Shown here: positions 11,304-33,675 of the stretch, piece after piece
Layout: each line of letters begins with the position of its first letter
Numbering within the stretch: the first letter of the stretch is position 1
Assembly: GCF_018861905.1 (NCBI RefSeq)
Contig: NZ_JAHLDU010000011.1
Location: forward strand, 62,001 to 126,000
Length of the DNA stretch: 64,000 nucleotides
From: Clostridium sp. DSM 17811
Lineage (GTDB): Bacteria; Bacillota; Clostridia; Clostridiales; Clostridiaceae
Reading direction: 5' to 3'
Translations under genes and position numbers: made by a program
Notes under the pieces: generated by a model
The model's database searches: none
What the model saw: only the letters and a program-made list of their open reading frames with translations
Told to the model about the DNA's origin: nothing

Positions 11304-11332
11304 TTGACTTTTGTCACAAAATTAAGTAAAAT
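11304..11332 (+). promoter_or_regulatory. Promoter of the third amt-PII cassette
   Basis: TTGACT (11304-11309), a 17-base spacer, and TAAAAT (11327-11332) match the first cassette in both hexamers and spacing. Confidence 0.7.
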
Positions 11333-11349
11333 GACGCTTATTGGCAAGC

Positions 11350-11384: not shown

Positions 11385-11420
11385 GCATTTAGGAATAATA
11401 TTTAATTAGGAGGAATTTCT

Positions 11421-12656: not shown

Positions 12657-12688
12657 TGAAATAAGTTAAAATAAAAGGGGGTACGGGT

Positions 12689-14145: not shown

Positions 14146-14170
14146 ATTTAATATGTGTGTATTAGCTGTA

Positions 14171-15214
14171 TTATTTTATTTGAGCTAGACCCTTTTCTTT
14201 TAAAACTTTATTTAAAACAGTAATATTAAATAAATCCTTAGTATCGGGTTCGGATTTTAAGAAACCTTCTTTAACTGATGATTTAACAAAATCAAGTACT
14301 GAGTCTTTTTCAGGATCATTTGTAATTGTTAATCGCTTAAAAGCAGCATCTAAAACATCATTAGATATTGATTTTTTAGTTAATTCAGTGATTTGTTTAT
14401 TTACTATTTCCTTAGCTTTATCTGGATTTTTATTAATATATTCAGTTGTCTCTACGTGATTTTTTATAAAAGCTTCAACAATTTGTGGATGATCCTTTAA
14501 AAATTCAGTTCTAACAACTACTACAGCAGTAGTATATTTTCCTTCTCTAAATACATCTTTATAATCTAAAATAATATTTGCACTTGCCTCTTTAATTAGC
14601 CTTGATCCCCAAGGTTCAGGTACTAAAGCTGCATCTATATCTCCCTTTTGTAGTAAGGCTAAAATATCTGCGTTCTCTGCCTGCCTTACTTCTACGGTTC
14701 CACCTTTTGTTTTATCTTTAAGTCCATTGTCAGATAATATTTTCCTAAGAGTTAAATCTTGAGTGTTTCCAAACTGAGGAACTGCGATTTTCTTGCCACT
14801 TAAATCTTTTAAATTCTTAATAATTATGCCTTTTCTAGAGACAAATATTGCTCCTGCATCAGTTGCGCCTGCAATAATTTGAACATCACCTTTAGATTTT
14901 ACAAAAGCATTTATAGCTGGTCCGGGTCCTATATATCCAATATCTATAGCTCCTGCAAAAAGTGCCTCTACTTCTGCGGGTCCTGCATTAAATAGTTTCC
15001 AATCTATTTTGTTCGCTGCTCCTATAGCCTTTTGAAAAGTACCTTGATCGCGGCCTACAAGCGCTTGTGCATGGGTTATGTTTGGAAAATATCCAACTCT
15101 AACATTAACAGCCTCACCTTTTGTTTCTTTTGATGAGCAGCCTGAAAATGTCCCAATAATTGAGATACCTAGTAATAATGCGATTGAAAATTTGAAAACT
15201 TTTGAATTTTTCAT
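14171..15214 (-). CDS. ssuA: Solitary SsuA/TauA/NrtA-family substrate-binding lipoprotein
   Basis: A 347-residue binding protein of the NMT1/SsuA fold, with a lipoprotein signal peptide (lipid Cys in GTFSGCSS). VGYFPNITHAQALVGRDQG, FNAGPAEVEALFAGAIDIGYIGPGP and ALVPEPWGSRL are typical of sulfonate, taurine or nitrate binders. It is the same length as, and highly similar to, the binding protein at 45908-46951, but no permease or ATPase is nearby. It probably delivers its ligand to the ssuBC transporter encoded at 47-48.5 kb. Family members in clostridial sulfate loci may carry sulfate rather than sulfonates. Promoter and operator sequence upstream point to sulfur control. Confidence 0.85.
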   Translation of the reverse strand: MKNSKVFKFSIALLLGISIIGTFSGCSSKETKGEAVNVRVGYFPNITHAQALVGRDQGTFQKAIGAANKIDWKLFNAGPAEVEALFAGAIDIGYIGPGPAINAFVKSKGDVQIIAGATDAGAIFVSRKGIIIKNLKDLSGKKIAVPQFGNTQDLTLRKILSDNGLKDKTKGGTVEVRQAENADILALLQKGDIDAALVPEPWGSRLIKEASANIILDYKDVFREGKYTTAVVVVRTEFLKDHPQIVEAFIKNHVETTEYINKNPDKAKEIVNKQITELTKKSISNDVLDAAFKRLTITNDPEKDSVLDFVKSSVKEGFLKSEPDTKDLFNITVLNKVLKEKGLAQIK

Positions 15215-16763: not shown

Positions 16764-16922
16764 TTCTTATCAAGAGTGGTGGAGGGACTGGCCCTATGAA
16801 ACCCGGCAACCTAATTTAAATTAAAGGTGCTAATTCCAGTAGGTTTAAACCTTGAAGATGGGAAGCTAATAGACAGGTAAATTATCCTTCTATAGCTAGC
16901 CTATAGGGGGATTTTGTTTTAT
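16764..16922 (+). ncRNA. SAM-I (S-box) riboswitch with terminator
   Basis: P1 is CTTCTTATC (16764-16772) pairing with GATGGGAAG (16857-16865). Between them are the conserved S-box blocks AGAGTGG, GGAGGGACTGGCCC and ATGAAACCCGGCAACC, and the GGTGCTAATTCC region. An intrinsic terminator follows (16884-16895 with 16901-16912, then T-rich to 16922). SAM binding should stabilise the aptamer and let the terminator form, lowering metY expression when methionine/SAM is plentiful. Confidence 0.95.
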
Positions 16923-18289: not shown

Positions 18290-18318
18290 TATAAAGTATT
18301 ATTTAAAACTAAATATGA

Positions 18319-18501
18319 CTTATCGAGAGAGGTAGAGGGACTGGCCCGATGATACCCGACAACCAGCATTTTTTAATGCAATGGTGTAAATTCCATCAGA
18401 TTGTAAAATCTGAAAGATAAGGATGTTAGCAAATTTTATTGGACATTATATTGTTTACTAAAGTTAATTATGCTGCTCTCCTTATGTGAGAGCAGCTTTT
18501 T
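18319..18501 (+). ncRNA. Second SAM-I (S-box) riboswitch with terminator
   Basis: CTTATC (18319-18324) pairs with GATAAG (18416-18421). Conserved blocks GAGAGAGG, AGAGGGACTGGCCC, CCCGACAACC and ATGGTGTAAATTCC are present. A terminator stem GCTGCTCTC/GAGAGCAGC (18472-18480 with 18488-18496) and a T run follow. ATAAGGA in the 3' side of P1 (18417-18423) is complementary to TCCTTAT at 18479-18485 in the terminator, which provides the antiterminator expected when SAM is absent. Confidence 0.95.
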
Positions 18502-19882: not shown

Positions 19883-20047
19883 TATTATACCCGAATTGTG
19901 GAACAATCCTGGAACTTTAAGTCGTCTAAAACTTCTTATATAATAATAAAGATTTAATAGTAAGTTTTTAAGCATATACCACAAAATTACATTAAAGAAT
20001 ACAAATATAGGATTAAAGTTAAATGTTTAAATACTTGAAAAAATGAC

Positions 20048-20107
20048 TTGACAAAAATTTAATATAGCATATAATAAAATTATAACTAATCCTATATGAA
20101 TACTATG
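20048..20107 (+). promoter_or_regulatory. Promoter and operator-like site of the corrinoid cluster
   Basis: TTGACA (20048-20053), a 16-base spacer, and TATAAT (20070-20075) are followed 13 bases later by AATCCTATATGAATACTATG (20088-20107). The same three elements with the same spacing stand at 27728-27788 before the ubiG-cysK unit. Confidence 0.65.
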
Positions 20108-20357
20108 AGATGCGATGAAGAAGGAAAGTATTATATTGAACGGGTACAGAGAGGAAGCGCTGCTGAGAAGTTTCCACCTGAATATATATGAAGTGCCCTT
20201 TGGAGTATGGACCTGAAATTAAAGTAGGGGACTACGGGTTCGCCCGTTAAAGCGATAAAGCATTTTGTGCTTGGATTTAATTCATATTTATAATCAATTA
20301 GAGTGGGACAGCGAAGTTTAAAAGCGACGCCTCTATAATAGGGGGCATTGCTTTTTT
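20108..20357 (+). ncRNA. T-box leader (tRNA-sensing riboswitch), probable Cys class
   Basis: Stem I has the 5' AGTA (20127-20130) and 3' GAA (20190-20192) of the loop-E motif, the distal GCTGCTGAGAAG block, and TTTGGAG after the specifier. A UUCG-capped stem (20234-20247) may be stem III. The T-box motif is AGAGTGGGACAGCG (20300-20313). The terminator pairs 20321-20334 with 20340-20354 and ends in a T run. The codon after GAA reads GTG in the canonical register and TGC (Cys) one base later. The base pairing with the tRNA discriminator is G, which can pair with U73 of tRNA-Cys but not A73 of tRNA-Val, and the cluster is sulfur-linked, so Cys is favoured. Confidence 0.85.
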
Positions 20358-20424
20358 GACTTTAAAAATATAATCATTGGGAAATGTAGTAGGAAAATGC
20401 CAATAATAAAATGGGGGTTAAAAA

Positions 20425-21075
20425 ATGTCAATCAACAAAGAGGAACTGTATAAGAAATTAGCTGATACTGTAGTAAATATGGAGGAAGAGGAGACAGTAG
20501 AAATTTGTGAACAGGTCATTTCTGAAAACTTGGATGCTTATGAGGCTATAGTAAATGGATTGTCAGAAGGTATGGATCAAGCAGGAAAACTTTTTGATGA
20601 AGAGGAGTATTTTGTTCCAGAACTTTTGTTATGCTCTGATGCTATGTACGCAGGTTTAGATGTACTTAAGCCACATCTAAAAGCTAAAGATAATAAGGAC
20701 AAACAAAAGGTAATTATAGGTGTTGTTGAAGGTGACACTCATGACATTGGTAAAAATCTTGTAAAAATTATGCTTGAAACTGCTGGTTTTGATATTATTG
20801 ATCTAGGAAGAGATGTTCCACCATCTGTTTTTGTAGAAAAGGCAAAAGAAGAAAAAGCCAAAATAATAGTAATCTCTACGCTTATGACTACTACAATGGA
20901 AGGTATGAGTGAAGTAATTGAGATTCTTAATAAAGAAAATATAAGAGAAAATTTTAAGGTTATGATAGGTGGAGGACCAATATCTCAAGTATATGCAGAT
21001 AAAATTGGAGCAGATGGATATTCAGTAAATGCGGCAGAAGCTGTAAAACTTGCTAAAAGGTTAGTGCAAGCATAG
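20425..21075 (+). CDS. Corrinoid (B12-binding) methyl-carrier protein, MtaC/MtbC type
   Basis: A 216-residue cytoplasmic protein with an N-terminal helical cap domain (about 1-90) and a C-terminal B12-binding Rossmann domain (about 92-214). DTHDIGKN holds the lower cobalt ligand His106, and later STLMTTTMEGM and MIGGGPIS line the cofactor. Such proteins carry a methyl group on cobalt between two methyltransferases. It is the first gene after the T-box leader and is followed closely by a UroD-type methyltransferase. It is the only corrinoid protein in the window, so it must serve all three methyltransferases here if they act in one pathway. Confidence 0.93.
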   Translation: MSINKEELYKKLADTVVNMEEEETVEICEQVISENLDAYEAIVNGLSEGMDQAGKLFDEEEYFVPELLLCSDAMYAGLDVLKPHLKAKDNKDKQKVIIGVVEGDTHDIGKNLVKIMLETAGFDIIDLGRDVPPSVFVEKAKEEKAKIIVISTLMTTTMEGMSEVIEILNKENIRENFKVMIGGGPISQVYADKIGADGYSVNAAEAVKLAKRLVQA

Positions 21076-21129
21076 AACTCATTTTAACTTAAAGTTGTCT
21101 TAATTTTAAAAGAATAGGGGGAAAATAAT

Positions 21130-22197
21130 ATGTCACTTATACAAAGAAAAGATGAACTAACTTCACTTGAACGGGTATCTTTAACGCTTGCACGTAAGGA
21201 TGTAGACAGAATTGCGGCTGTTCCACTAGTTTGTGGTGCTTCATATAGAGTATTAGGTACAAGATATGATAAATGGTCTAATGATGCAGAAGTAGCAACT
21301 AAAAGTTTGCTTGCAGCTCAGGAATTAATAGGACAGGATGCATTTCTATTGCTTGTAGATCTTTCTGTTGAAGCTGCTGATTTTGGACAAGAATTACTTT
21401 TTCCAAAGTATAGTACAGCATACCCTGATTTTAATAATCAATTAATTAATGCAACTGATGAATATAACAAGGTTAAAAAAATAAATCCTCGCGAGACAAA
21501 ACGTATGAAACAAGTTATTGATATTATAAAAGGTCTGTCTAAGGCAAAAGGGAATGAAGTAGCAATTCTTGGTTTCATATATGGTCCTCTTGGCGTATTA
21601 TCTCAGATGAGAGGACATAAAAATTTATTTACGGATCTTATTCGTCATCCGCAAGAGGTACTAGCTGCAGTTGATATTATAACTGATGTACTTGTAGAAT
21701 ATGCTAAAGCACAAGTAGATGCAGGGGCTCACTCTGTGTGCATTGATCCATTATATTCTTCGTCAACAGTACTTAGCAAGAAAACATGGGAGAAGTTTGA
21801 AGGCCCGTATCTTAAACGTATTGCTGATGCGATAAGGGAGGCAGGTGCAGCAGTATCAATACACAATTGTGGTGATGGAGTGTATTTTGAAGAGGTAATA
21901 AAATGGTCTAATCCTATAGCAATATCTGTAGCACATCCTGCACATGGCTCTAAAACATGGGAGGAACATGCAAAAACATGGGGAAAGAAAGTCATTACTA
22001 TTGGATACTCAGATCCAGCAACTACTGGACTTAACATGTCTACTGATGAGGTATTAGAAGATTGTAAAAGCCAAATTGACTTATTTAGGAAAAATGATGC
22101 GGGGTTCATTCTTTCAACTGGTTGTGAATTTCCTCCTAATGGTAATTTACTTAGTGCAGCTGCGATGGTTGAGGCATCAAGAAGATATGGAAGATAA
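21130..22197 (+). CDS. UroD-family cobalamin/corrinoid methyltransferase, copy 1
   Basis: A 355-residue TIM-barrel protein of the uroporphyrinogen decarboxylase superfamily, methyltransferase branch (MtaA/MtbA/MtgB-like). True decarboxylases lack the zinc site seen here: His245 and Cys247 in IHNCGD and Cys332 in STGCEFPPN, which activate a thiol acceptor or substrate. It lies 54 bases after the corrinoid protein with a GGGGG site and overlaps the next gene by 11 bases. It could demethylate a sulfur compound or pass the methyl group to a thiol; the substrate is unknown. Confidence 0.88.
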   Translation: MSLIQRKDELTSLERVSLTLARKDVDRIAAVPLVCGASYRVLGTRYDKWSNDAEVATKSLLAAQELIGQDAFLLLVDLSVEAADFGQELLFPKYSTAYPDFNNQLINATDEYNKVKKINPRETKRMKQVIDIIKGLSKAKGNEVAILGFIYGPLGVLSQMRGHKNLFTDLIRHPQEVLAAVDIITDVLVEYAKAQVDAGAHSVCIDPLYSSSTVLSKKTWEKFEGPYLKRIADAIREAGAAVSIHNCGDGVYFEEVIKWSNPIAISVAHPAHGSKTWEEHAKTWGKKVITIGYSDPATTGLNMSTDEVLEDCKSQIDLFRKNDAGFILSTGCEFPPNGNLLSAAAMVEASRRYGR

Positions 22198-23146
22198 GAT
22201 AAAAATTGATATTTTTTCTGGCTTTTTTGGTGCAGGAAAGACAACATTAATAAAAAAATTAATAGATGAAGATTTATATAATAAAAAAGTTGTCATTATT
22301 GAAAATGAGTTTGGCGAAATAGGTATAGACGGGATTTTTTTAAAAAAATATAATATTGAGGTTAAGGAAATAAATGAGGGATGTATTTGCTGTTCAACTT
22401 TTAATGATTTTAATAACACAATTCAAGATATTATTGATTCAAATAAAATAAAAAGAATTATTATTGAACCATCAGGTGTGGGAAAGTTATCAGAAATACT
22501 TGATATTGTAAAAAAATTTGAAATCAAGAATAATGTAATTATAAATATGGTTACTACTGTTGTTGATGTCACAATGTATGAAGATTTTATTGACTTCTTC
22601 AGCGAATTTTACAAGGATCAAATTATCTATGCGAATACTATAGTGCTAAGTCGAACACAAAGTGTTAATTATGAGGAATTACAAAATGTAATTTCGAAAA
22701 TAAAGAAGTTGAATAAAAAAGCAAATATTATAACAACGCCTTGGGATGTTTTAAGTGGGAATAATATTATTATGGCTTCAGAAAAGAATGGTAGACAAGA
22801 ATTATTTAACGAAGTAAATATAATTAAAATTCCAAAAGCGAAAGCAAAATTTCGAATTGCAAGAAAAATATTGGCAGAAGATATCTTTAGCAGTTGGGGA
22901 ATTGAAACACCTAAAGTTTACAACATTGAAGAACTAAAGCGTATATTTAATAATTTGAAAGATGAAAAATTGTATGGAAAAATAGTGAGAGCGAAAGGAA
23001 TACTACAGGTAGATGAGAATAAGTGGATCCAGTTTGATTATTTACCAAAACAATTTGAGGTAAGGGAGGTTAGGCCAGATTATACGGGGCGAATTTGTGT
23101 AATAGGAATTAACTTAAAGATTGAAAGCTTAATAAATATTTTTTAA
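22187..23146 (+). CDS. CobW/COG0523-family GTPase (metallochaperone-like)
   Basis: A 319-residue G3E-family GTPase from the ATG at 22187; the frame is open further upstream within the previous gene, but that part is out-of-frame sequence of the methyltransferase. GFFGAGKTT is Walker A, GCICC is the CxCC metal-binding motif, EPSGVGK holds the switch region, and LSRTQ replaces the usual NKxD-type motif. A CobW C-terminal domain follows (about 230-319). These proteins deliver zinc, cobalt or other metals. Here it may load zinc into the UroD-type methyltransferases or help with the corrinoid; this is inferred from position. Confidence 0.85.
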   Translation: MEDKIKIDIFSGFFGAGKTTLIKKLIDEDLYNKKVVIIENEFGEIGIDGIFLKKYNIEVKEINEGCICCSTFNDFNNTIQDIIDSNKIKRIIIEPSGVGKLSEILDIVKKFEIKNNVIINMVTTVVDVTMYEDFIDFFSEFYKDQIIYANTIVLSRTQSVNYEELQNVISKIKKLNKKANIITTPWDVLSGNNIIMASEKNGRQELFNEVNIIKIPKAKAKFRIARKILAEDIFSSWGIETPKVYNIEELKRIFNNLKDEKLYGKIVRAKGILQVDENKWIQFDYLPKQFEVREVRPDYTGRICVIGINLKIESLINIF

Positions 23147-23177
23147 TCTAGTTATGTGATTTGTAAGGAGATATAGA

Positions 23178-23837
23178 ATGAAGATAAAAGTAATAGCTTG
23201 TGAGGTTATGAAAGAAGAGATGTTATCAATAAAGCCATTAGCTGATGAGGACTTTGAGTTTGTATCGATGGATTACCATCTTTATCCTCAAAAACTAGGC
23301 ACTGAGCTCCAAAATATTATTGATAGATCTGTGGATTATGACAGAATTATTTTAGCTTTTGGTTTGTGTGGTGGAGCTGCAAATGGGTTAAAATCAAGCA
23401 ACTGTAAGCTTACAATACCCAAAGTACATGATTGTATTTCTGTATTTCTTAGTTCAGGTGAAGGATGTGTATGTGATTTTAAAAAAGAGGTAGGAACCTT
23501 TTACCTAAGTTGTGGTTGGATGATCACAGAAAAATCAATACTTTCCGATCATAAGCGAATTCTTGAAAAATTTGGATCTAAAAAAGCTTTTAGAGTTTTA
23601 AACAGGATGTATGACGGCTATAAAAAGGTGCTATTTATTCGTACAGGATATCCGTCGGAGGACGAAGTAATAAATCAATCAAAAGAAATAGCTTCATTAA
23701 TTAGTTGTGAACATGAAATAATTCAAGGGAAAACCTCTTTTATTGAAAAGATTATAAGAGGACCATGGGATGATACAAATTTTATAAACAAAGATCCACT
23801 AGGAATTCTTACAGAAGAAGACTTTGGGATACATTAA
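23178..23837 (+). CDS. DUF1638 family protein
   Basis: A 219-residue soluble protein. ACEVMKEEM at the start, LAFGLCGGAANGL, the HDCISVFLSS segment and FYLSCGWM match DUF1638, a family often found with corrinoid proteins and methylamine-type methyltransferases. Cysteines in CEV, GLCGG, HDC and SCGW could bind a metal or cofactor. It sits between the CobW GTPase and the second methyltransferase with a GGAG site 7 bases before the ATG. Biochemical function is not established as far as I know. Confidence 0.85.
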   Translation: MKIKVIACEVMKEEMLSIKPLADEDFEFVSMDYHLYPQKLGTELQNIIDRSVDYDRIILAFGLCGGAANGLKSSNCKLTIPKVHDCISVFLSSGEGCVCDFKKEVGTFYLSCGWMITEKSILSDHKRILEKFGSKKAFRVLNRMYDGYKKVLFIRTGYPSEDEVINQSKEIASLISCEHEIIQGKTSFIEKIIRGPWDDTNFINKDPLGILTEEDFGIH

Positions 23838-23877
23838 AATTTATTATCAATATAAAATGCAAAAGGAGAGTTGCTTT

Positions 23878-24900
23878 ATGAATGATCTAACTCCAAAAGA
23901 GAGAATACAACGCACATTTAAAAAGCAAACAGTAGACAGACCACCTATAATTTGTCCGGGCGGGATGATGAATTCTGCCATTGTAGAGGTAATGAATAAA
24001 ACAGGTCATAAACTTCCACAAGGTCATCATAACAGTAAGATAATGGCTGAGATCGCAAATGATGTACATCAGAATACAGGCTTTGAAAATTTTGGGATAC
24101 CATTTTGCATGACCGTTGAAGCGGAGGTTCTAGGAAGTGAAATAAATTATGGGAATCTTTTTTGTGAACCTAAAATACAAAAAGAAGTATTTGCTACAGC
24201 ATCTGATGTAGTATTTAAAGAATTAGGGGCAATGGAGAAAAATAAAAGAGTTAATTCAATAATTGATGCTACTTATACATTGTCTAAAAAATACCCTGAT
24301 GTTCCTGTAATCGGAAGTCTAACAGGTCCTATTAGTACAGCGGCTTCTTTGGTAGATCCTATTTCTTTCTTAAAAGAATTAAGAAAAAATCCAAGTATCG
24401 CCCATAGTGTTATTGATTATGTAAGTAATCATATTATAGAACTCGCAACATTAATGATAGAAAATGGAGCAAATGTAATTTCTATTGCGGATCCTACTGC
24501 AACGGGGGAGATATTAGGGCCAAAGATGTTTGACGAATATGCAGTTAGATATTTAAATAAAATTATTAATGCGGTGCATGCTATGAATACACCCGTAATT
24601 GTTCATATATGTGGAAAAATGAGTGCAGTAAAAAAATATATACCTAAAATTAAATCTGATGCCATAAGTACTGATTCGTCTATCAATTTAAAAATACTTA
24701 AAGACGAATATCAAGGACTTACTACAATGGGAAATGTAAGCACATATCTTTTAGAATTTGGAGATGAAGAAAAAATTGCAAATCAAACAGCAAGACTTGT
24801 AAATGATGGAATTAACATTATATCACCAGCTTGTGGACTTAGCACATCTACACCATTAAAAAATATAGAATCAATGACAAAAATAGTGAAGGGGTCTTAG
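23878..24900 (+). CDS. UroD-family corrinoid methyltransferase, copy 2
   Basis: A 340-residue TIM-barrel methyltransferase. The frame is open from 23824, but AGGAGA directly precedes the ATG at 23878, and MNDLTPKERIQRTFKKQTVDRPP is the typical family N-terminus. The zinc site is His243 and Cys245 in VHICGK plus Cys319 in SPACGLS. It is closer to MtaA/MtbA in its opening motif than copy 1 is. It sits between the DUF1638 gene and the reactivator gene, with only three bases before the latter. Substrate unknown. Confidence 0.87.
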   Translation: MNDLTPKERIQRTFKKQTVDRPPIICPGGMMNSAIVEVMNKTGHKLPQGHHNSKIMAEIANDVHQNTGFENFGIPFCMTVEAEVLGSEINYGNLFCEPKIQKEVFATASDVVFKELGAMEKNKRVNSIIDATYTLSKKYPDVPVIGSLTGPISTAASLVDPISFLKELRKNPSIAHSVIDYVSNHIIELATLMIENGANVISIADPTATGEILGPKMFDEYAVRYLNKIINAVHAMNTPVIVHICGKMSAVKKYIPKIKSDAISTDSSINLKILKDEYQGLTTMGNVSTYLLEFGDEEKIANQTARLVNDGINIISPACGLSTSTPLKNIESMTKIVKGS

Positions 24901-24903
24901 TTC

Positions 24904-26574
24904 ATGGTAAAAGTAAATTTTATTACAAATAATAAGTCAGTTACTGTGGAAAAAGGAACTACAATACTTACAGCAGCAAGAAAGGTAGGAATCGTTATAG
25001 AATCACCATGTAATGCAGTTGGGGTATGTGGTAAATGCAAGGTAAAAGTTGAACTAAGCAACTTAGTGGATATAATTCAAGATGGAAACCATCAGTTGTC
25101 AGAGAAAGAGAAAGCTCAAGGTTTTATATTAGCTTGCGGAGCTAGGGTAATGGCAGATATAAATGTAGAAATAATATCTAAAAATTCAAATAAGACGCTA
25201 CAAATATTAAATCATGGTGAAAGCTTCGATATACAATTAGACAGTTTTATTAGAAAAGAATATAAAGATAATGGAAAGACGAATGTGTATGCAGGAGATG
25301 AAATAATAGGCGAAGAGGAGGGTGATACTACAGCATTAATTTACGGCGTAGTTGTGGATATCGGAACTACAACTTTAGTAGCAACATTAGTTAATATTAG
25401 TACAGGTGAAGAGATTAATTCAGTTTCAGCATTAAATCCACAAAGTATTTATGCTCAAGATGTTTTATCTAGAATAAAATTTGCGTCGGATGAAAAAGGA
25501 CTTAATATAATGTATTCTTCAATAATCAAAGAAATAAGCGGATTAATTGAAAAAAACACTAAAGAAACAGGGATAGATAATAAGTATATATATGAAGTGA
25601 TTTTTAGTGGTAATACATGTATGATTCATCTTGCAGCTAATGTTAATCCTTATTCTTTAGGCAAATACCCATATACTCCAGTAATAAGAGGCGGAAGTTA
25701 TTTAATTTCTAAGGAGCATAAATTAAATATTTCAAGTAATGGATTAATATATTTACCTCCTATAATTTCATCCTATGTAGGTCCAGATATAACATCTGGT
25801 ATATTAGCAACAAGGCTTCAAGAGAGAAAAGGTACCACATTGTTTGTTGATATAGGGACAAATGGTGAAATGGTGATAGCAAGGGATGGTAAATTATCAT
25901 CAACATCTACTGCGGCAGGGCCAGCTTTTGAAGGCATGAATATAACTTATGGTATGAGAGCGCAAAGAGGTGCTATAGAATATTTCAATATAGAAGAAGA
26001 TGGGTCAATAGAAATCAAGACCATTGAAGATGGAGATCCAATTGGTATTTGTGGTAGTGGTCTTTTAGATATTGTGGGGGAGTTAGTTGCAAACAAAGTT
26101 ATTGGTAAAAGTGGTAGATTTGTTTCCATAGAAAATTCTAATTTACCAGAGATTTTAAGTGAGAGATTAGTAAAATTAGATGGTAAAAATGCTTTTAAAA
26201 TAGCAGAGGGAATATTTCTTACTCAAAAGGATATAAGACAAGTTCAGTTAGCAAAAGGTGCAGTAAGATCGGGAATTGAATTTCTTATGTTAAGCAAAAA
26301 TGTAGAGGCAACCGAAGTTGATAAAATACAAATAGCTGGCTCATTTGGCTATCATCTAAGATCAAAAAGTCTTACAAACATTGGACTATTGCCAAAAGAG
26401 TTTGAAGGTAAGATAGATTTTGTTGGAAATACATCTAAATCTGGCGGTCATGCGTTTTTATTAAATAAAGAATATAGAACTGAAATGGAGAAAGTTGTAA
26501 AGGACATTGAAGTTGTTGAATTATCAAATGGTGAGAATTTTGATAAGATTTTTGTTAAAAGTTTATCTTTCTAA
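24904..26574 (+). CDS. Reductive activator of corrinoid proteins (RACo/RamA-like, DUF4445)
   Basis: A 556-residue protein with an N-terminal [2Fe-2S] ferredoxin domain (Cys36, Cys42, Cys45 and Cys78) and a C-terminal ASKHA-type ATPase domain: DIGTTTLVATLV, NPQSIYAQDV, GNTCMIHL, FVDIGTNGEM, AAGPAFEG and GICGSGLLDI. RACo uses ATP to reduce inactive Co(II) corrinoid back to Co(I). Its presence shows the corrinoid protein here takes part in methyl transfer that sometimes misfires by oxidation. It is three bases downstream of methyltransferase copy 2. Confidence 0.93.
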   Translation: MVKVNFITNNKSVTVEKGTTILTAARKVGIVIESPCNAVGVCGKCKVKVELSNLVDIIQDGNHQLSEKEKAQGFILACGARVMADINVEIISKNSNKTLQILNHGESFDIQLDSFIRKEYKDNGKTNVYAGDEIIGEEEGDTTALIYGVVVDIGTTTLVATLVNISTGEEINSVSALNPQSIYAQDVLSRIKFASDEKGLNIMYSSIIKEISGLIEKNTKETGIDNKYIYEVIFSGNTCMIHLAANVNPYSLGKYPYTPVIRGGSYLISKEHKLNISSNGLIYLPPIISSYVGPDITSGILATRLQERKGTTLFVDIGTNGEMVIARDGKLSSTSTAAGPAFEGMNITYGMRAQRGAIEYFNIEEDGSIEIKTIEDGDPIGICGSGLLDIVGELVANKVIGKSGRFVSIENSNLPEILSERLVKLDGKNAFKIAEGIFLTQKDIRQVQLAKGAVRSGIEFLMLSKNVEATEVDKIQIAGSFGYHLRSKSLTNIGLLPKEFEGKIDFVGNTSKSGGHAFLLNKEYRTEMEKVVKDIEVVELSNGENFDKIFVKSLSF

Positions 26575-26596
26575 AAAAGTAAGGAGAAAATAAAAT

Positions 26597-27673
26597 ATGA
26601 ATGAAATTTTGTTAAAAGATGAAATGACACCAAAGGAAAGAATTGAAGCCATGATTAGTGGTAGACCATTTGACAGAGTCCCATGTAATATTTTTATAGG
26701 TGATCATGCAGCAACTATAATAGGTGTCAAAGTGTCAGATCTAAACTTTTCATCTGACAAGTTTATAGAGGGACAGATAGCCGCAAATGAAAAATATGGT
26801 ATAGAGTCTACAGGTGTTTCACCTGGACTTGCAGGTATTGCTGAGGCATTAGGAAGCAAGCTTATTTTCCCAGATCATGGGGCCCCTTATGTTAGTGAAT
26901 ATGCTATAAAAGATGTTTTAGATTTAGAAAAGCTAAGTGTACCTGATCCAGTAAAAGCAGGTAGATTTCCATTCGTTTTAGAAACTACGAAAAGACTTGT
27001 AGATAAATTTGCAAAGGAAATACCGGTTTCAGTAGAAGTACCTGGGCCATTTACAACAGCAGGAAATCTTATGAGTATAGAAAAATTATTGCGTGATACA
27101 AGAAAAAATCCGGATTATATTCATAGAGTTCTTCGTCTTGTAACTGATACAACAATAGCATTTATAAAGGAAGCCGCAAAATTTGATGTAGATATAGGAA
27201 TAGCTGAACCGTCTGCATCAGGTACTTTAATAAGTAAAGATTTGTTTCAAAAGTTTACTCTTCCATACTTAACAGAAATAGTTGATCTTATTAAAATGTT
27301 AGGTAAAGGATCACCTTATCTTCATATTTGTGGGAATACTAAAAAAATTTGGACTTTAATGGCAGATACAGGTGTGGGATCTTTAAGCCTTGATGATGTT
27401 ATAGATTTGGAAGAAGCAAAAAAAACAGTAGGAGATAGGGTAACACTAATTGGTAATGTAAAACCTACAGCAACTATGTATTTAGGAGGACCAATTGATG
27501 TGGAAAAAGATGTTAAGGAGTGCCTTAAAAAGGCATATGATAATCCTAAAGGATATGTACTTGCTTTGGGATGTGGATTCCCAATTGATACGCCTCCTGA
27601 AAACATTTATGCACTACGGAAAGCGGCAATAAAATATGGTAAGTATCCATATGAACCATCACTATTTAGCTAG
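26597..27673 (+). CDS. UroD-family corrinoid methyltransferase, copy 3
   Basis: A 358-residue TIM-barrel methyltransferase with His243 and Cys245 in LHICGN and Cys326 in ALGCGFP. MTPKERIEAMISGRPFDRVPCN is the family start. VEVPGPFTTAG and EPSASGTLIS line the barrel. It closes the corrinoid cluster; no clear terminator follows before the next promoter at 27728. With copies 1 and 2 it makes three potential zinc methyltransferases for one corrinoid protein, so at least one may accept an alternative substrate or donate to a different thiol. Confidence 0.88.
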   Translation: MNEILLKDEMTPKERIEAMISGRPFDRVPCNIFIGDHAATIIGVKVSDLNFSSDKFIEGQIAANEKYGIESTGVSPGLAGIAEALGSKLIFPDHGAPYVSEYAIKDVLDLEKLSVPDPVKAGRFPFVLETTKRLVDKFAKEIPVSVEVPGPFTTAGNLMSIEKLLRDTRKNPDYIHRVLRLVTDTTIAFIKEAAKFDVDIGIAEPSASGTLISKDLFQKFTLPYLTEIVDLIKMLGKGSPYLHICGNTKKIWTLMADTGVGSLSLDDVIDLEEAKKTVGDRVTLIGNVKPTATMYLGGPIDVEKDVKECLKKAYDNPKGYVLALGCGFPIDTPPENIYALRKAAIKYGKYPYEPSLFS

Positions 27674-27727: not shown

Positions 27728-27788
27728 TTGACAAAGACAAAACATGGCATATAATAGAAATAAAACTAATCCGATATGAATACTATTG
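27728..27788 (+). promoter_or_regulatory. Promoter and operator-like site of the ubiG-cysK unit
   Basis: TTGACA (27728-27733), a 16-base spacer, TATAAT (27750-27755), then AATCCGATATGAATACTATT from 27768. Each element sits at the same relative position as in 20048-20107. No T-box is present here. Confidence 0.65.
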
Positions 27789-27823: not shown

Positions 27824-28474
27824 ATGGGATCAGTAGATTATTTCAACGAAATAGCACAAAGTTGGAATGTAATAAGAAGTGAGTATTTTGATGAGAGATT
27901 AAAGTACAAGGTTTTATCTAAAGTAAATATTAAAGACAAGGTTGTGGCTGATCTTGGATGTGGAACTGGATTTTTATCATTAGCACTGGCATTAGATGCA
28001 AGTATTGTATTTTCTATAGATCAATCTGTAAATATGTTAGTAGAAACAAGAAAATTAATGGAGACTAAAAAATTTGATAATGTGTATCCAATAAAATCAT
28101 CCATAGACAACTTGGCTTTGTTTGATGAATCTGTAGATGTGGTTTTTATTAATATGGCACTTCATCATGTTAAGGATGCTAAAAAAGCAATAGAGGAAAT
28201 GTTTAGAATAATAAAAAAAGATGGAACTTTAATAATATCAGATGTACAAGAGCATAGTGGCGAATGGGCAAAGACTGAGATGTTTGACGAATGGCTTGGG
28301 TTTTCAAATAATCAGATGGAAGAGTGGTTAACGTCTGCTGGTTTTAATCTTGTTAATATTGAGAATACAGATTTATTATGTAAAGGCTATTCTAGCAAAG
28401 GAGAATTTACACAGACTGGCATTTTTATTGCAGTAGCAAATAAGGGAGGACTAAATAGTGAAGTATATAAATAG
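27824..28474 (+). CDS. Class I SAM-dependent methyltransferase (UbiG/YrrT-like)
   Basis: A 216-residue methyltransferase with motif I VVADLGCGTGF (about 43-53), an acidic SIDQS for the ribose, and NMALHHVKDAKKAIEEM. In clostridial ubiG-mccBA operons and in the B. subtilis yrrT-mtnN-mccAB operon a similar enzyme precedes the methionine-to-cysteine genes, and its methyl acceptor is still unclear. Here it overlaps the cysK/mccA gene by 17 bases. The unit lacks mccB and luxS or mtnN, so the rest of the reverse trans-sulfuration pathway must be encoded elsewhere. Confidence 0.85.
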   Translation: MGSVDYFNEIAQSWNVIRSEYFDERLKYKVLSKVNIKDKVVADLGCGTGFLSLALALDASIVFSIDQSVNMLVETRKLMETKKFDNVYPIKSSIDNLALFDESVDVVFINMALHHVKDAKKAIEEMFRIIKKDGTLIISDVQEHSGEWAKTEMFDEWLGFSNNQMEEWLTSAGFNLVNIENTDLLCKGYSSKGEFTQTGIFIAVANKGGLNSEVYK

Positions 28475-29369
28475 TGTACTCGAGAATATAGGAAATACAC
28501 CACTCATAAAATTAAATAATTTAGGATTAAAAGAAGGGGTGAATATTTTCGCAAAACTTGAGGGTGAGAACCCAGGTGGTAGCGTAAAAGATAGAGTTGG
28601 AGTTTACATGATTAAGGATGCAGAAGACAGGGGCATCCTTAAAGTGGGATATACAATTGTTGAAGCTACCGCAGGAAATACTGGAATAGGTGTGGCACTT
28701 GCAGCAATAAACAAAGGATATAATATAATATTTGTTGTTCCAGAGAAGTTTTCAGTAGAAAAGTTAACTTTGATGAGAGCATTAGGTGCAACTATTGTTA
28801 ATACACCAAGGGAAGATGGCATGTTAGGTGCCATTAATAAAGCGAAAGAACTATTGGATGAAATCCCTAATTCTATTTCATTACAACAGTTTGAAAATGA
28901 TGCTAATCCAAAAGCACATTATGAGACTACAGGACCAGAAATATATAATGCATTAGAAGGTCAAATTGATTATTTTCTTGCAGGAGCAGGAAGTGGTGGA
29001 ACATTTAGTGGTGTTATGAAATATCTAAAGGAAAAGAATGAAAATATAAAGGGTATATTAGTAGATCCGGATGGATCAACCATAGGTGGTGGAGAGGAAC
29101 ATTGTTATGATATAGAAGGGATAGGAAATAATTTTGTTCCAACCACTATGGATTTAAACCTAGTTAAAAGTGTTATTAAAATTACTGATGATGAGGCTAA
29201 AGATAAGGTAAAGCTAATTGCTGTTCGTGAAGGATTATTTGTAGGAAGTTCTTCTGGAGCTGCAATAGCGGCTGCAATAAAACTTGCAGAAACTATTGAT
29301 AAGGGAAACATTGTTATAATATTGCCTGACAGAGGGGATAGATATTTTAGCAAAAACATTTATGATTAA
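28458..29369 (+). CDS. Cysteine synthase family (CysK or MccA, O-acetylserine-dependent)
   Basis: A 303-residue fold-type II PLP enzyme. K44 in GGSVKDRVG is the PLP lysine, TAGNTGIGVA binds the substrate carboxylate, GAGSGGTFSG binds the phosphate and GSSSGAA lies near the C-terminus. The start is GTG with GGGAGG eight bases upstream, inside the end of the methyltransferase gene. Either it makes cysteine from O-acetylserine and sulfide, or, as MccA does, it makes cystathionine from O-acetylserine and homocysteine. The ubiG-like partner favours MccA; the sequence alone does not decide. Confidence 0.9.
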   Translation: MKYINSVLENIGNTPLIKLNNLGLKEGVNIFAKLEGENPGGSVKDRVGVYMIKDAEDRGILKVGYTIVEATAGNTGIGVALAAINKGYNIIFVVPEKFSVEKLTLMRALGATIVNTPREDGMLGAINKAKELLDEIPNSISLQQFENDANPKAHYETTGPEIYNALEGQIDYFLAGAGSGGTFSGVMKYLKEKNENIKGILVDPDGSTIGGGEEHCYDIEGIGNNFVPTTMDLNLVKSVIKITDDEAKDKVKLIAVREGLFVGSSSGAAIAAAIKLAETIDKGNIVIILPDRGDRYFSKNIYD

Positions 29370-29731: not shown

Positions 29732-29848
29732 AGAGATAAAGTGCGAATATTGCAAATTATGAGTGTTTGTTTTGAAATGAATTTAACAAAAAATACTGCT
29801 ATTACAAGAGAAATTAAAATAAATCATGAAAATATTGGAGGAATAAAT

Positions 29849-30064
29849 ATGAATATCAAAGTAAATGGCGAAGAAAAAAATATTAAAGATGATGTTACGG
29901 TGACTGAAATGTTAAAAATCGAAGATGTGGAAATGCCAGATATGGTTTCAGTTCAATTGAATGGTGAATTTGTGGATAGAGATCAATTTGTGAAAACTGT
30001 ATTAAAAGAAAATGACGAAATAGAAGTTTTATATTTTATGGGAGGTGGAAGTCTTGGACTTTAG
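29849..30064 (+). CDS. hcyS: ThiS/MoaD-like sulfur carrier protein with C-terminal tail (HcyS-like)
   Basis: A 71-residue ubiquitin-fold sulfur carrier from the ATG at 29849 (GGAGG seven bases upstream; the frame is open further upstream but that part is leader). It has the VNGEEKNI start, VSVQLNGEFV mid-protein and a C-terminal FMGGG-SLGL. ThiS and MoaD end in Gly-Gly; here four residues (SLGL) follow the glycines, so it cannot be adenylated until trimmed. The JAMM protease two genes downstream is the obvious candidate. The Wolinella HcyS system, where an Ala is removed before thiocarboxylation, is the closest precedent I know. Confidence 0.85.
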   Translation: MNIKVNGEEKNIKDDVTVTEMLKIEDVEMPDMVSVQLNGEFVDRDQFVKTVLKENDEIEVLYFMGGGSLGL

Positions 30065-30884
30065 TGAGGAGCAGATAGAAAGATATTCAAGACATATATT
30101 ATTGTCTGAGGTTGGAGTTGAGGGACAAGAAAAATTACTAAATTCAAAAGTTCTTATTATTGGAACAGGAGGTCTTGGGGCACCAGCTGCTATGTATTTG
30201 GCAGCTGCAGGAATAGGTACAATAGGACTTGTAGATGGCGATGTTGTTGATTTATCAAATCTTCAGAGGCAAATTATACACCAAACTAAGAATGTGGGGC
30301 AACTTAAAGTTGAATCTGGAAAAGAAACAATAAATGAACTTAACCCAGATGTAAATGTCATTACTTACAATGAATTTGCTACATCAGAAAATATTTTAAA
30401 TATTATAAAAGATCAGGATTATGATTTTATAATAGATGGAACAGATAATTTTGCTGCAAAATTTTTAATAAATGATGCCTGTGTACTTGCTAAAAAACCA
30501 TTTTCTCATGCTGGAATAATAAGGTTTAAGGGACAACTCACAACTTATATTCCAGGTAACAATACGCCTTGTTATAGATGTATTTTCCAAACACCACCAC
30601 CAGAAGGAATGGTGCCAACATGTAGAGAAGCTGGCGTACTTGGAGTAATGGGTGGAGTTGTGGGAACACTCCAAGCAACAGAAGCTATTAAATATATACT
30701 AGGACTTGGACAAACTCTCGCAGGTTATTTACTAACTTATGATGGACTAAAGATGGAATTTAAGAAAATAAAAATAAATCATAATAAAAGATGTGGAGTT
30801 TGTGGGGATCATCCTACTATAACAGCTTTAATAGACTATGCAAATCCATCTTGTGATTTAAAAACAGGAAAGTTGAATGGGTGA
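30054..30884 (+). CDS. hcyF: ThiF/MoeB-family adenylating enzyme (HcyF-like E1)
   Basis: An E1-like enzyme that adenylates the carrier C-terminus ready for sulfur transfer. ERYSRHILLSEVG opens the protein, GTGGLG binds ATP, NLQRQIIH supplies the arginine, and Cys191 in PTCREAG aligns with the E1 cysteine. CYRC (174-177) and CGVC (248-251) form a zinc site. TTG at 30054 is preferred because GGGAGG lies eight bases upstream; GTG at 30045 is possible but lacks a spaced ribosome-binding site. The gene overlaps the end of hcyS, and its ribosome-binding site falls within the carrier's glycine codons. No rhodanese domain is present. Confidence 0.9.
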   Translation: MDFSEEQIERYSRHILLSEVGVEGQEKLLNSKVLIIGTGGLGAPAAMYLAAAGIGTIGLVDGDVVDLSNLQRQIIHQTKNVGQLKVESGKETINELNPDVNVITYNEFATSENILNIIKDQDYDFIIDGTDNFAAKFLINDACVLAKKPFSHAGIIRFKGQLTTYIPGNNTPCYRCIFQTPPPEGMVPTCREAGVLGVMGGVVGTLQATEAIKYILGLGQTLAGYLLTYDGLKMEFKKIKINHNKRCGVCGDHPTITALIDYANPSCDLKTGKLNG

Positions 30885-30889
30885 TTAAT

Positions 30890-31297
30890 ATGATATATAT
30901 TGATAAACTTACGATAGATAAAATAATAAATCAGGCAAAAGAGGAGTTCCCTAATGAATGTTGTGGCTTTTTATCAGGAACTAAAAGCGAAGGTATAATT
31001 AATGTGAAAAAGTCATATCCACTTACAAATTTAGATAAAAGTAGTGAGCATTTTTCAATGGATCCTAAGGAACAATTTAATACAATAAAAATTATTAGAG
31101 GTCATGATATGTTATTCATTGGAAACTATCATTCCCATCCATATACTCCCTCAAGGCCTTCAGAAGAAGATATAAGACTGGCGTATGATCCAAAGATAAT
31201 ATATGGCATTTTATCACTTGAAAAAGAAGAGCCAGTATTTAACTTGTTTAAGATAAATAAAGATGGCGTTCTTAAACTTGAGTACAAAACTATTTAA
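30890..31297 (+). CDS. hcyD: JAMM/MPN+ metalloprotease (HcyD/Mec-like)
   Basis: A 135-residue zinc isopeptidase of the JAMM family from the ATG at 30890; GTG at 30881, overlapping the previous stop, is an alternative start. All catalytic elements are present: Glu23 in NECCGF and the HSHPYTPSRPSEED motif with His81, His83, Ser91 and Asp94. Bacterial homologues trim sulfur-carrier precursors or release cysteine from a carrier. Given the GGGSLGL tail on the carrier in this operon, removal of that tail is the likely job. Confidence 0.9.
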   Translation: MIYIDKLTIDKIINQAKEEFPNECCGFLSGTKSEGIINVKKSYPLTNLDKSSEHFSMDPKEQFNTIKIIRGHDMLFIGNYHSHPYTPSRPSEEDIRLAYDPKIIYGILSLEKEEPVFNLFKINKDGVLKLEYKTI

Positions 31298-31358
31298 TAT
31301 ATTAATTTAGATTTTAATATACAAATGCTTTTATTAATACAAAGGGAAGTGATTTAGG

Positions 31359-33659
31359 ATGATTAATATTACAGAAGAAAGTTATAAGGTGATAGAAGAT
31401 TTTAAAGAAAAAGCCGATTTATATATGAATGGCAAACTTGATCCTACTAGATTTAAGGCATTTAGAGTTTCTATGGGAGTTTACGAACAAAGAGCTTCAG
31501 ATACTTATATGGTAAGGACTAGGATTCCTGGTGGAGTAATTACACTAGAGCAATTTAAGCAGATAAGTGATATCTCAAAAAAATATGCAAAAGGTTTATT
31601 GCGTTTTACTTCTAGGCAGGATATTCAGTTTCAAAGTGTTGAATTAGCAGATGTATATAGTATTATGAAGGAGCTTATAGAAGTAGGTATAATTACTAAG
31701 GGAACTGGCGGTAATACAGTAAGAAATGTTGAGTGTTCCCCTCTTTCTGGAGTGTCTAGAAATGATGTATTTGACGTAACTAGTTATATGAGTGAAGTTA
31801 CTAATTATTTGCTTAAAGACCCTACCACTATGAATCTTCCAAGAAAATATAAAATAGGTTTTTCAAATACTCTCGGCGACACTGGAAACGCTACAATATC
31901 TGATTTGGGATTTATAGCAAGGGTAGTTGATGGAGCTAAAGGGTTTGAGGTTTATGGTGGTGGAGGTTTTGGAGGAAATCCAAAAGTATCACTAAAACTT
32001 GAGGATTTTATTAATGTAAAAGATGTTTTGTATTATGTTCAAGCTATGAAGGAACTTTTTGAAAAAGAAGGGGACAGAAGCAATAAACATAAAGCAAGAA
32101 TAAGGTATATTGTTGAAAGATTAGGTGAAGAAAAATTTAAACTAAGGTTTAATGAAGAACTTAAAAGAATAAAGAAAGATAGAGATGTTGATTTAATAAT
32201 AGATGATGTCATAGATGAAAAATATGATCAAATTGCTGAAGGTTCTGAAATTGATAAGGCATATGAAAGTGTTTTATTCCCTCAAAAACAAGTTGGATAT
32301 ACTTCTGTTTATGTACATCCGCAAGGAGGAAATTTAGAAGCGGTAAACCTTCAAGAAATATTAGATTTTGTTAATAAATTGGATTATAAAATATCTATAA
32401 GGCTTTCAAACACTCAGAGCTTTTTTGTGAGAGATTTAAAAGATAACGATGCTAAAACATTATTAAAAATAATAGCACCATTTTCATCAAATTTTAACAT
32501 ATATAATTCAGTAACTTGCGTTGGAGCATCAACTTGTCAATTAGGACTGTGTTTATCACAAAATCTGTTGCAAGCTATAAAGGAAGAATTTAGTGAAAAT
32601 ACTGATGAAATTAAAGCATCACTTCCTAGAATCTTTATATCGGGATGTCCTAATTCCTGTGGGCGTCACCAAATAGGCAAAATAGGCTTAAGTGGGAGAG
32701 CAAAAAGAACAGAAGATGGTCTAATGCCTACGTATACTGTATCATTTGGTGGTAATGTTGGGCATGGCCAAGCTAAAATCGGAGAATCATACGGTGATAT
32801 TCCTGCAAAGAAGGTACCAAAGTATCTTGCAGAGATTGCTAAGCTTAAAAAAACATCCGGTTATGAGTCTTTTGAAGAGTTTTTAAATAATACCCAGAAG
32901 GATGTAAGAGAGTTAACTAATAAATATGGAGCATTGGAAACATTTAAAGAAAATCCTGACCTTTATTATGACTTTGGAGCAAGTGAAAAATTTTCTATTG
33001 AAGGACGTGGACCTGGTGAGTGTAGTACAGGGGTATTTGATGTTATAAAACTTGACTTATCAAATGCAGAAAGTTCTCTTTTAAAGTATAAATCAAGTAA
33101 AAAATCGCAAGATTTGTACGAGGCTGCGGTGTCATCTGCGAGAACTCTTTTAGTATTAAAGGGCATAGATACAGCAAAGGATAGAGAGATATTCAAACAA
33201 TTTAATATAAATTTTGTTGAAACTGGTTTCGTTAGCAAATCTGTTGTAGAGCTTTTCGATACGCTTCTTGATTATAAACTTGGCGATATAGTTGATATAA
33301 CAAGTAAAGCAGTTGAGGTTGAATATCTTTATAACAAGGTAAAAGAAATGTATGGATCTTTAAATGGACAATTAGAAATAACACTTCCAAAGGAAGTATC
33401 AATTAACGTGTCAGAGGAATCACAAATAAGTAAAGATTATGAAGTTATTGATTTTAGAGGAGTTACATGTCCAATGAATTTTGTAAAAGTTAAAATTCAA
33501 CTATCTAAAATAAAGTCTGGTGAAAAAAGAGGATTTTATTTAGATGATGGTGATCCTATAAAAAATGTTCCATTAAGTGTTTCAAAAGAAGGTAACAAGA
33601 TAATATTAATAGATAATAATTATGAAGGCTATAATTTACTTGTAGTTGAGAAAAAATAA
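31359..33659 (+). CDS. Sulfite/nitrite reductase fused to a helical region and a C-terminal TusA domain
   Basis: A 766-residue protein. Residues about 20-110 form the ferredoxin-like half domain, and 370-440 carry the siroheme-[4Fe-4S] ligands: Cys387 and Cys393 in CVGASTC, and Cys429 and Cys433 in GCPNSCG. Residues about 565-650 are helical and HEPN-like (my reading, moderate confidence). Residues about 695-766 are a TusA/SirA domain with RGVTCPM, its sulfur-carrying Cys at about 704. It should reduce sulfite to sulfide, and the attached TusA domain suggests direct hand-over of sulfur to the carrier. It lies between the JAMM protease and the MetY-like genes. Confidence 0.88.
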   Translation: MINITEESYKVIEDFKEKADLYMNGKLDPTRFKAFRVSMGVYEQRASDTYMVRTRIPGGVITLEQFKQISDISKKYAKGLLRFTSRQDIQFQSVELADVYSIMKELIEVGIITKGTGGNTVRNVECSPLSGVSRNDVFDVTSYMSEVTNYLLKDPTTMNLPRKYKIGFSNTLGDTGNATISDLGFIARVVDGAKGFEVYGGGGFGGNPKVSLKLEDFINVKDVLYYVQAMKELFEKEGDRSNKHKARIRYIVERLGEEKFKLRFNEELKRIKKDRDVDLIIDDVIDEKYDQIAEGSEIDKAYESVLFPQKQVGYTSVYVHPQGGNLEAVNLQEILDFVNKLDYKISIRLSNTQSFFVRDLKDNDAKTLLKIIAPFSSNFNIYNSVTCVGASTCQLGLCLSQNLLQAIKEEFSENTDEIKASLPRIFISGCPNSCGRHQIGKIGLSGRAKRTEDGLMPTYTVSFGGNVGHGQAKIGESYGDIPAKKVPKYLAEIAKLKKTSGYESFEEFLNNTQKDVRELTNKYGALETFKENPDLYYDFGASEKFSIEGRGPGECSTGVFDVIKLDLSNAESSLLKYKSSKKSQDLYEAAVSSARTLLVLKGIDTAKDREIFKQFNINFVETGFVSKSVVELFDTLLDYKLGDIVDITSKAVEVEYLYNKVKEMYGSLNGQLEITLPKEVSINVSEESQISKDYEVIDFRGVTCPMNFVKVKIQLSKIKSGEKRGFYLDDGDPIKNVPLSVSKEGNKIILIDNNYEGYNLLVVEKK

Positions 33660-33675
33660 CTTCAGAGGTGTAAAT

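Follow-up and report, generated by a model that had tools for sequence, protein, structure and literature searches.

What does a cell gain from a corrinoid-dependent methyltransferase operon whose message begins with a sensor of cysteine shortage? This question is raised by a stretch of the genome of Clostridium sp. DSM 17811, called the window in this text, which comprises 64,000 nucleotides (positions 62001–126000 of contig C11) of an assembly of 5.19 Mb in 98 contigs. Positions 20425–27673 of its plus strand hold the genes for a corrinoid carrier protein, UroD-A, a CobW GTPase, a DUF1638 protein, UroD-B, a RACo-type activase and UroD-C, in this order. The seven genes form a compact unit, all being read in one direction with gaps of 3–54 bp and one overlap of 11 bp. 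The evidence tips, by a modest amount, towards the view that this is an operon resembling the published type I mlp clusters and devoted to sulfur. A first-pass annotation, made from the sequence alone, had described a single unit of the same composition, and Pfam matches confirmed all seven genes. The leader and the genes are as follows.

20106–20337, + strand: T-box leader with specifier TGC (Cys) and T-box sequence UGGG; Rfam RF00230, 99.9 bits, E 7.9e-21, model positions 1–219
20320–20355, + strand: terminator helix of the leader, then a T run; −17.2 kcal/mol, z −4.64
20425–21075, + strand: corrinoid carrier protein, 216 residues; Pfam PF02310 (B12-binding, 9.2e-27) and PF02607
21130–22197, + strand: UroD-A methyltransferase, 355 residues, of a rare separate lineage; Pfam URO-D, 1e-53
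22187–23146, + strand: CobW-family GTPase, 319 residues, ATG at 22187, with the 11-bp overlap with UroD-A; PF02492, 1.1e-37
23178–23837, + strand: DUF1638 protein, 219 residues; PF07796, 1.1e-39
23878–24900, + strand: UroD-B methyltransferase, 340 residues, Mlp3-like; URO-D family (the three UroDs giving 1e-53, 3.2e-78 and 5.3e-80)
24904–26574, + strand: RACo-type ATP-dependent corrinoid reductive activase, 556 residues; PF14574 (RACo_C_ter, 2.9e-70), PF17651 and Fer2
26597–27673, + strand: UroD-C methyltransferase, 358 residues, Mlp2-like; URO-D family

The carrier protein scores 207.7 bits against TIGR02370, slightly under the cut-off of 215.3, and the Pfam and BLAST searches with the CobW protein used a shorter form beginning at 22199. 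Most families in our Pfam and TIGRFAM lists are superfamily cross-matches, and enzymes dependent on pyridoxal phosphate (PLP) were judged against curated cut-offs.

The T-box leader and its specificity

At the sequence level, the T-box is confirmed as specific for cysteine, as the first-pass annotation had read it: the leader has the T-box architecture, its specifier is TGC, and its T-box nucleotide fits the discriminator of tRNA-Cys. The TGC lies in the same alignment columns in all five leaders compared. A search of the same genome gave 30 T-box matches, whose genes (thrS, valS, cysK-cysE and so on) we named by eye from the translations. A script located the UGGN sequence in 25 matches (18 UGGU, 3 UGGA, 2 UGGC and 2 UGGG), and four more, all UGGU, were read by eye; one was left unread. 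The UGGG form occurs in 2 of the 29 leaders read, namely those of the corrinoid cluster and of cysK-cysE, and GAAGTGCCCTTT is common to both. The tRNA-Cys genes of this genome have U73 (ending in U-CCA) and the single tRNA-Val gene seen has A73 (A-CCA), and because of this difference UGGG should meet tRNA-Cys through a G-U pair and should be unable to meet the tRNA-Val. The copy of the cluster in C. ljungdahlii has a diverged leader (GAA-A-TGC-A) with UGGA, which would form a normal pair if tRNA-Cys of that species likewise carries U73.

The specifier region of the window leader reads GAA-G-TGC-C, and the alternative frame one base earlier would give GTG (Val). Among the leaders to which a frame was assigned by eye, the later frame is that of 11 and the earlier one that of four (leuS, alaS, trpS and trpE); the valS leader itself uses the later frame (GAA-G-GTT). 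Valine specificity was rejected on the grounds that the offset of the valS codon matches TGC, that the tRNA-Val seen does not fit, and that cysK-cysE has the same specifier.

Cys T-boxes with TGC have been described on cysK-cysE and ubiG-mccBA(-luxS) in C. perfringens and C. acetobutylicum (PMC2940859). The specifier is the same as in the window, whereas the targets given in the part of that source consulted include no corrinoid methyltransferase cluster. In the open-access literature we found no earlier report of a link between a Cys T-box and such a cluster; version 3 of PMC10418091 contains the words "T-box leader" once, in a context that we have not seen, and we claim no priority.

Kinship with mlp clusters and a proposed scheme

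UroD-A, UroD-B and UroD-C each retain His-x-Cys and a distal Cys when they are aligned with one another and with the solved MtaA (4ay7), which bears out the complete zinc sites ascribed to them in the first reading. A His-Cys-Cys set of zinc ligands marks the UroD methyltransferases that act on sulfur or selenium (PMC10418091), and in the alignments all three proteins have ligands of this type. In phmmer alignments with MtaA, UroD-B gave 1.6e-43 with about 28.8% identity and UroD-C 1.7e-34 with about 31.0% identity; UroD-A reached only 37.6 bits.

The relationships were examined in a tree of 74 UroD sequences, for which the program warns that long-branch placements are unsure. UroD-B falls in a clade (100/100, 23 rows) that includes Acetivibrio, Geobacteraceae and others. 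A 100/99 branch sets this clade, together with an eight-row group (80/83) holding the Mlp3- and Mlp1-type rows of C. ljungdahlii, against UroD-C, the Mlp2-type row of C. ljungdahlii and UroD-A. UroD-A forms its own clade (100/100) on a long branch on the side of UroD-C, where its exact position is unsure. The identification of UroD-A as Mlp1 was rejected, because the Mlp1-type row is placed elsewhere and UroD-A stays in its own long-branched clade. The Mlp reference rows of C. ljungdahlii were recognised by gene order, the published sequence similarity network not being part of the tree comparison.

Type I mlp gene clusters have been defined in C. ljungdahlii and more than 100 genera (Kountz and Balskus 2023, PMC10418091), and the roles proposed are methyl-selenide recycling for most of them and, where the genome shows no selenium traits, methionine salvage or the metabolism of methyl-sulfur compounds. 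The window cluster has the gene content of this definition (Mlp2 and Mlp3, a corrinoid protein and RACo), in one direction, with spacing of at most 2 kb and no tetrahydrofolate methylase within 20 kb. It belongs with the non-selenium type in that its genome lacks selenium traits: no match to selA was found in it, and selD reached only 35.8 bits against a cut-off of 125. The resemblance covers the Mlp2- and Mlp3-like UroDs, the corrinoid protein, Ram/RACo, the His-Cys-Cys zinc sites and the sulfur-gene neighbours; those of non-selenium clusters are MetY, CysK, CysI, CysC, AprAB, CysND, LuxS and MccA (Fig. 7b of PMC10418091). The window cluster differs by the addition of the Cys T-box, UroD-A, CobW and DUF1638; no Mlp1 was recognised in it, and no MarHDK-like genes were found in the genome. 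A methyl-sulfur function of such clusters is already published as a proposal (PMC10418091). What is apparently new is the Cys T-box on the cluster, the UroD lineage accompanied by CobW and DUF1638, and a gamma-lyase gene behind the cluster in two relatives; version 4 of the paper makes no mention of T-box, riboswitch, DUF1638 or CobW.

C. ljungdahlii carries the same seven-gene set as the window (L083/L188, 56–88% identity) behind its own Cys T-box. A second locus about 60 kb away (L187), separate from it, has the order Mlp1-Mlp2-corrinoid-Mlp3-Ram and was read from this order as the published cluster; UroD-B is 47% identical to its Mlp3-type protein and UroD-C 36% to its Mlp2-type protein. 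Among better-known systems, MtsAB of Methanosarcina, a methylthiol:coenzyme M methyltransferase, likewise carries out corrinoid-dependent S-demethylation by a UroD enzyme and differs in serving methane formation with coenzyme M as acceptor. In Sdm of Methanococcus voltae and M. maripaludis, as described in the part of PMC11097638 consulted, a corrinoid protein and methyltransferases also win a chalcogen under starvation; the differences are selenium, an archaeal host and a coenzyme M methyltransferase.

The scheme that we propose is as follows. At cysteine shortage, uncharged tRNA-Cys would bind the T-box, the terminator would not form and the operon would be transcribed, as is expected from known Cys T-boxes. 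RACo would reduce the corrinoid protein to Co(I), with DUF1638 probably assisting. At least one UroD would use zinc to bind a sulfur compound that bears a methyl group, and would transfer this group to Co(I). UroD-C, which is Mlp2-like, appears the likeliest donor enzyme, the most probable substrate is methanethiol or else a small thioether, and UroD-A is taken to supply an additional donor or acceptor. Another UroD, perhaps UroD-B, would hand the methyl group to a thiol such as homocysteine, and the released sulfide or thiol would flow to cysteine through the products of the MetY and MccA/MccB genes, or CysK, that are found beside these clusters. The donor and acceptor roles are suggested by kinship with Mlp2 and Mlp3, and the direction by the consideration that cysteine-short cells gain from freeing sulfur and not from methylating it. 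The best hint on the substrate is that genes for methionine gamma-lyase, an enzyme that releases methanethiol, lie behind RACo in two relatives. Among the substrates suggested in the first-pass annotation, we favour methanethiol or a sulfide-yielding thioether, with methionine as the main rival. That annotation had not pointed out the UbiG-MccA operon with its shared operator, the genes for methionine gamma-lyase and reverse transsulfuration that accompany the cluster in relatives, or the published cluster family. The broader claim made there, demethylation of methyl-sulfur compounds for cysteine, gains from the Cys T-box, the His-Cys-Cys sites, the sulfur neighbours and the lack of selA and folate enzyme matches, and its substrate and acceptor stay at the level of candidates. 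We hold as possible, but doubtful in its details, a narrower form in which a thiol demethylase induced by cysteine starvation turns methanethiol, taken from outside or made by methionine gamma-lyase, into sulfide and passes the methyl group to homocysteine, with UroD-A, CobW and DUF1638 as an undescribed module for substrate widening or metal loading. In this form, a single B12 carrier would shuttle methyl groups between the pool of methionine and that of cysteine.

The purpose of bacterial mlp clusters has been open between selenium salvage, methionine salvage and sulfur scavenging. A sensor of tRNA-Cys in the message shows what the cell needs this version for, and speaks against the view that all such clusters are selenium devices. 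The question can be tested in the acetogen C. ljungdahlii, where both versions lie about 60 kb apart. If the scheme is true, anaerobes could obtain the sulfur of cysteine from methanethiol or dimethyl sulfide through B12 chemistry.

As to DUF1638, Cys8, Cys64, His84 and Cys86 are invariant in an alignment of 15 sequences, and a sequence search for solved relatives found none. In the part of PMC5764234 consulted, methionine restores DUF1638 mutants of Phaeobacter, and the family co-occurs with a RamA-like activase in alpha-proteobacteria. Because of this rescue and this co-occurrence, DUF1638 is likely a helper of corrinoid activation or reactivation.

Adjoining sulfur genes, operator-like sites and related loci

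The cluster is flanked by sulfur genes, which are listed here together with the promoter and the operator-like sites. The ubiG-mccA operon that comes next encodes proteins of the types that convert methionine to cysteine.

16764–16864, + strand: S-adenosylmethionine (SAM) riboswitch ahead of the MetY gene; RF00162, 90.7 bits
17006–18289, + strand: MetY, O-acetylhomoserine sulfhydrylase; TIGR01326, 668.8 bits, cut-off 495.1
18317–18423, + strand: SAM riboswitch ahead of the gamma-family PLP gene; RF00162, 83.5 bits
18628–19806, + strand: gamma-family Cys/Met PLP enzyme, nearest to methionine gamma-lyase; TIGR01328, 356.3 bits
20048–20053 and 20070–20075, + strand: sigma-A-like promoter, TTGACA and TATAAT with a spacer of 16 bp, read from the sequence as the predicted start region
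20085–20106, + strand: operator-like site ACTAATCCTATATGAATACTAT, a probable repressor site; repeat search and whole-genome pattern scan
27765–27786, + strand: second exact operator core, ahead of ubiG-mccA; repeat search and whole-genome pattern scan
27824–28474, + strand: SAM-dependent methyltransferase, named by context as UbiG of the ubiG-mccBA type; PF13847, 6e-22
28458–29369, + strand: MccA/CysK-type PLP enzyme (cystathionine beta-synthase or cysteine synthase); PF00291, 8.9e-72

The MccA/CysK-type enzyme scores 342.0 bits against TIGR01136 (cut-off 344.15), and the gene at 18628 stays below the equivalog cut-off of 549.7 for methionine gamma-lyase. A gamma-family PLP gene stands beside corrinoid clusters also in C. 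ljungdahlii (L083, 4879 onward) and C. polyendosporum (L110, 663 onward); that of C. ljungdahlii is 75% identical to the window gene and divergent from its cluster.

Across the genome, the exact operator core occurs solely in the promoters of the cluster and of ubiG-mccA. Four further sites have up to three mismatches (2, 3, 3 and 3), and a reversed control pattern gave 2 sites. A similar site before the MetY gene (16656) scores 20.4, though it belonged to the training set, and the cluster, ubiG-mccA and MetY are the only three places with a strong operator. The first-pass annotation had taken this sequence to be common to cystine, sulfate and thiocarboxylate genes, which did not hold up: the sulfate genes score 9.4 and the thiocarboxylate (ThiS) genes 12.3, within the range of the controls, where 30 of 708 upstream regions (4.2%) score above 8, with a maximum of 16.8, and none of the 25 best operator sites of the window lies upstream of the amino-acid ATP-binding cassette operon at 2311–4621. 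In related loci, cluster starts score above 8 more often overall than the controls (14 of 75 against 30 of 708), but the 14 are not independent, since a number of them come from closely related Acetobacterium. A CymR/Rrf2-type regulator is a guess: Rrf2 genes are present in the genome, and one lies near the cluster of relative G001.

Related loci were retrieved by UroD-B, and the best 80 of 444 confirmed loci, some of them cut by contig ends, were compared. UroD-A at 55% identity or more is present in 16 of the 80, accompanied by DUF1638 in 14 and by CobW in 12. Its rarity is evident from a sample of 391 genomes of the class, only two of which, the present one included, have it at E < 1e-110. 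Among 60 relatives, again counting this genome, it occurs at 97–100% in three and at 41–43% in three more, the latter in differently composed clusters. A CysK-like gene lies in 35 of the 80 loci, and the number rises to 40 when MetY and gamma-family PLP genes are counted too, as judged from the retrieved DNA. Of eight Acetobacterium loci, six carry MetY, an additional UroD and genes of the MccB and MccA types behind the cluster, and five of these six have MetA as well. The two loci with methionine gamma-lyase directly behind RACo belong to G015 and G012 (L192:12426–13628 and L193:832–2034); the G015 protein scores 580.3 bits, above the TIGR01328 cut-off of 549.7, and the G012 protein is 91% identical to it. 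In C. algoriphilum (G007), the operator is present at the corrinoid cluster, where no T-box reaches the Rfam threshold; a Cys T-box of 125.4 bits instead leads the downstream slot, which is occupied by genes of the UbiG, MccB, LuxS and MccA types.

Farther off in the window, 29786–34908 encodes ThiS, ThiF, a JAB protease, a PLP enzyme and a sulfite-reductase protein that carries a TusA domain at its C terminus; by this route, sulfur from a protein thiocarboxylate may perhaps reach homocysteine or cysteine. A sulfate cluster with adenosine phosphosulfate kinase, phosphoadenosine phosphosulfate-reductase-type and GTPase subunits likewise lies at a distance.

Competing explanations and further observations

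Several points weigh against the sulfur-directed scheme. The antiterminator stretch folded alone is no better than shuffles (z −0.64), and the contact of UGGG with U73 requires a G-U pair. In the 80 loci, a T-box stands directly ahead of the cluster in two and before the next operon in a third (C. algoriphilum), three other motif matches lie away from the cluster, and by this simple motif scan the T-box is seen with Clostridium clusters only. The scan of the 80 was a regular expression, which odd-form T-boxes could escape, and full Rfam searches covered 16 loci and eight whole-genome stretches; Rfam found no T-box in seven Acetobacterium loci. MarHDK-like genes invariably accompany non-selenium clusters (PMC10418091), and no such group IV-A genes were found in this genome, where the PF00148 matches were read as a nif set. 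The CysK count of 35 in 80 stands without a background rate, and UroD-A appears too divergent from MtaA for its role to be read from that comparison. Gene proximity cannot tell methanethiol, dimethyl sulfide, methionine and methylthioadenosine (MTA) apart, and ClMlp2, the sole relative tested, had a rate with sulfide 4.3-fold below that with selenide (PMC10418091).

The chief competitor, which we regard as unlikely but deserving attention, is that the UroDs demethylate methionine itself and so deliver homocysteine to MccA/MccB at cysteine shortage, a shortcut past SAM, S-adenosylhomocysteine and LuxS. It would explain why UbiG-MccA adjoins the cluster under the same operator, and it agrees with the MccB-, LuxS- and MccA-type genes after the C. 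algoriphilum cluster and the MccB/MccA-type genes in six of the eight Acetobacterium loci. Homocysteine, however, should be reachable already by the SAM route; the gamma-lyase behind RACo in two relatives would form methanethiol, and MetY with MetA in Acetobacterium suggests free sulfide as an intermediate. Methionine salvage from MTA or its breakdown products, which Kountz and Balskus proposed for non-selenium clusters, is less probable still. It fits the genome without selA and with selD below cut-off. UroD-B also clades with Acetivibrio, which we take to be related to H. thermocellum, the non-selenium example in their paper. Against it, the operon sensor reads Cys and not Met or SAM, the genome has only four nitrogenase-type matches, read as nif, and no enzyme for MTA or methylthioribose is among the Pfam matches of the scanned neighbours, although no genome-wide search was aimed at one.

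The reverse direction, with the carrier methylating sulfide to methanethiol for methionine synthesis by MetY or a gamma-family PLP enzyme, would suit the adjacent MetY and gamma-family genes under SAM riboswitches, and the published ClMlp2 assay was in the methylating direction (PMC10418091). We consider it quite improbable, given that control by cysteine shortage suits the release of sulfur rather than its use for methionine, and that a PF00809 search found no dedicated folate methyl donor enzyme in the genome. Salvage of methyl-selenides, as in Sdm of M. voltae and most type I clusters, has family homology on its side, and C. ljungdahlii and G011, which each hold a window-type and a second cluster, do have selA. 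We give it very little credence for the window, whose genome, like G001 and G007, gave no selA match and selD far under the cut-off, and whose operon has the Cys T-box. The distribution of selA makes no clean rule: it is present in C. ljungdahlii, G011, G015, G012 and A. tundrae and absent in A. wieringae and A. straminisolvens, and the UroD-B relatives of the selA-bearing genomes fall, where placed, in the same clade. Growth on methyl compounds, with the methyl group passed to tetrahydrofolate for energy and carbon, would employ corrinoid protein, methyltransferase and RACo as standard parts, yet it is hardly to be expected under a cysteine sensor in a genome in which no stand-alone folate methyltransferase was found; the PF00809 matches are limited to two proteins, one FolP-like and one MetH-like (contigs C2 and C6), neither on the window contig. 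The sulfur-directed operon remains our preferred reading.

The MetH-like protein (C6:64630–65295) lies in a frame of 799 residues, and MetH of E. coli is longer. The protein may lack the reactivation domain, and RACo of the cluster might also serve it. The four PF00148 matches of this genome are adjacent on C6 and were read as nifDKEN; G001 has 14 such matches and G007 has 16; several nitrogenase-like genes lie at C1:1450898–1471456 of G001 and C22:8618–23992 of G007, the nearest being 19–20 kb from the cluster. Elsewhere in the window, 6779–13051 holds three successive pairs of an ammonium transporter and a PII gene, of which the PII genes and two transporters are 86–88% alike over 300-nt stretches. 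Two NMT1/SsuA-like binding-protein genes (14160–15213 and 45909–46962), 80% alike and in inverted orientation, bracket the sulfur genes.

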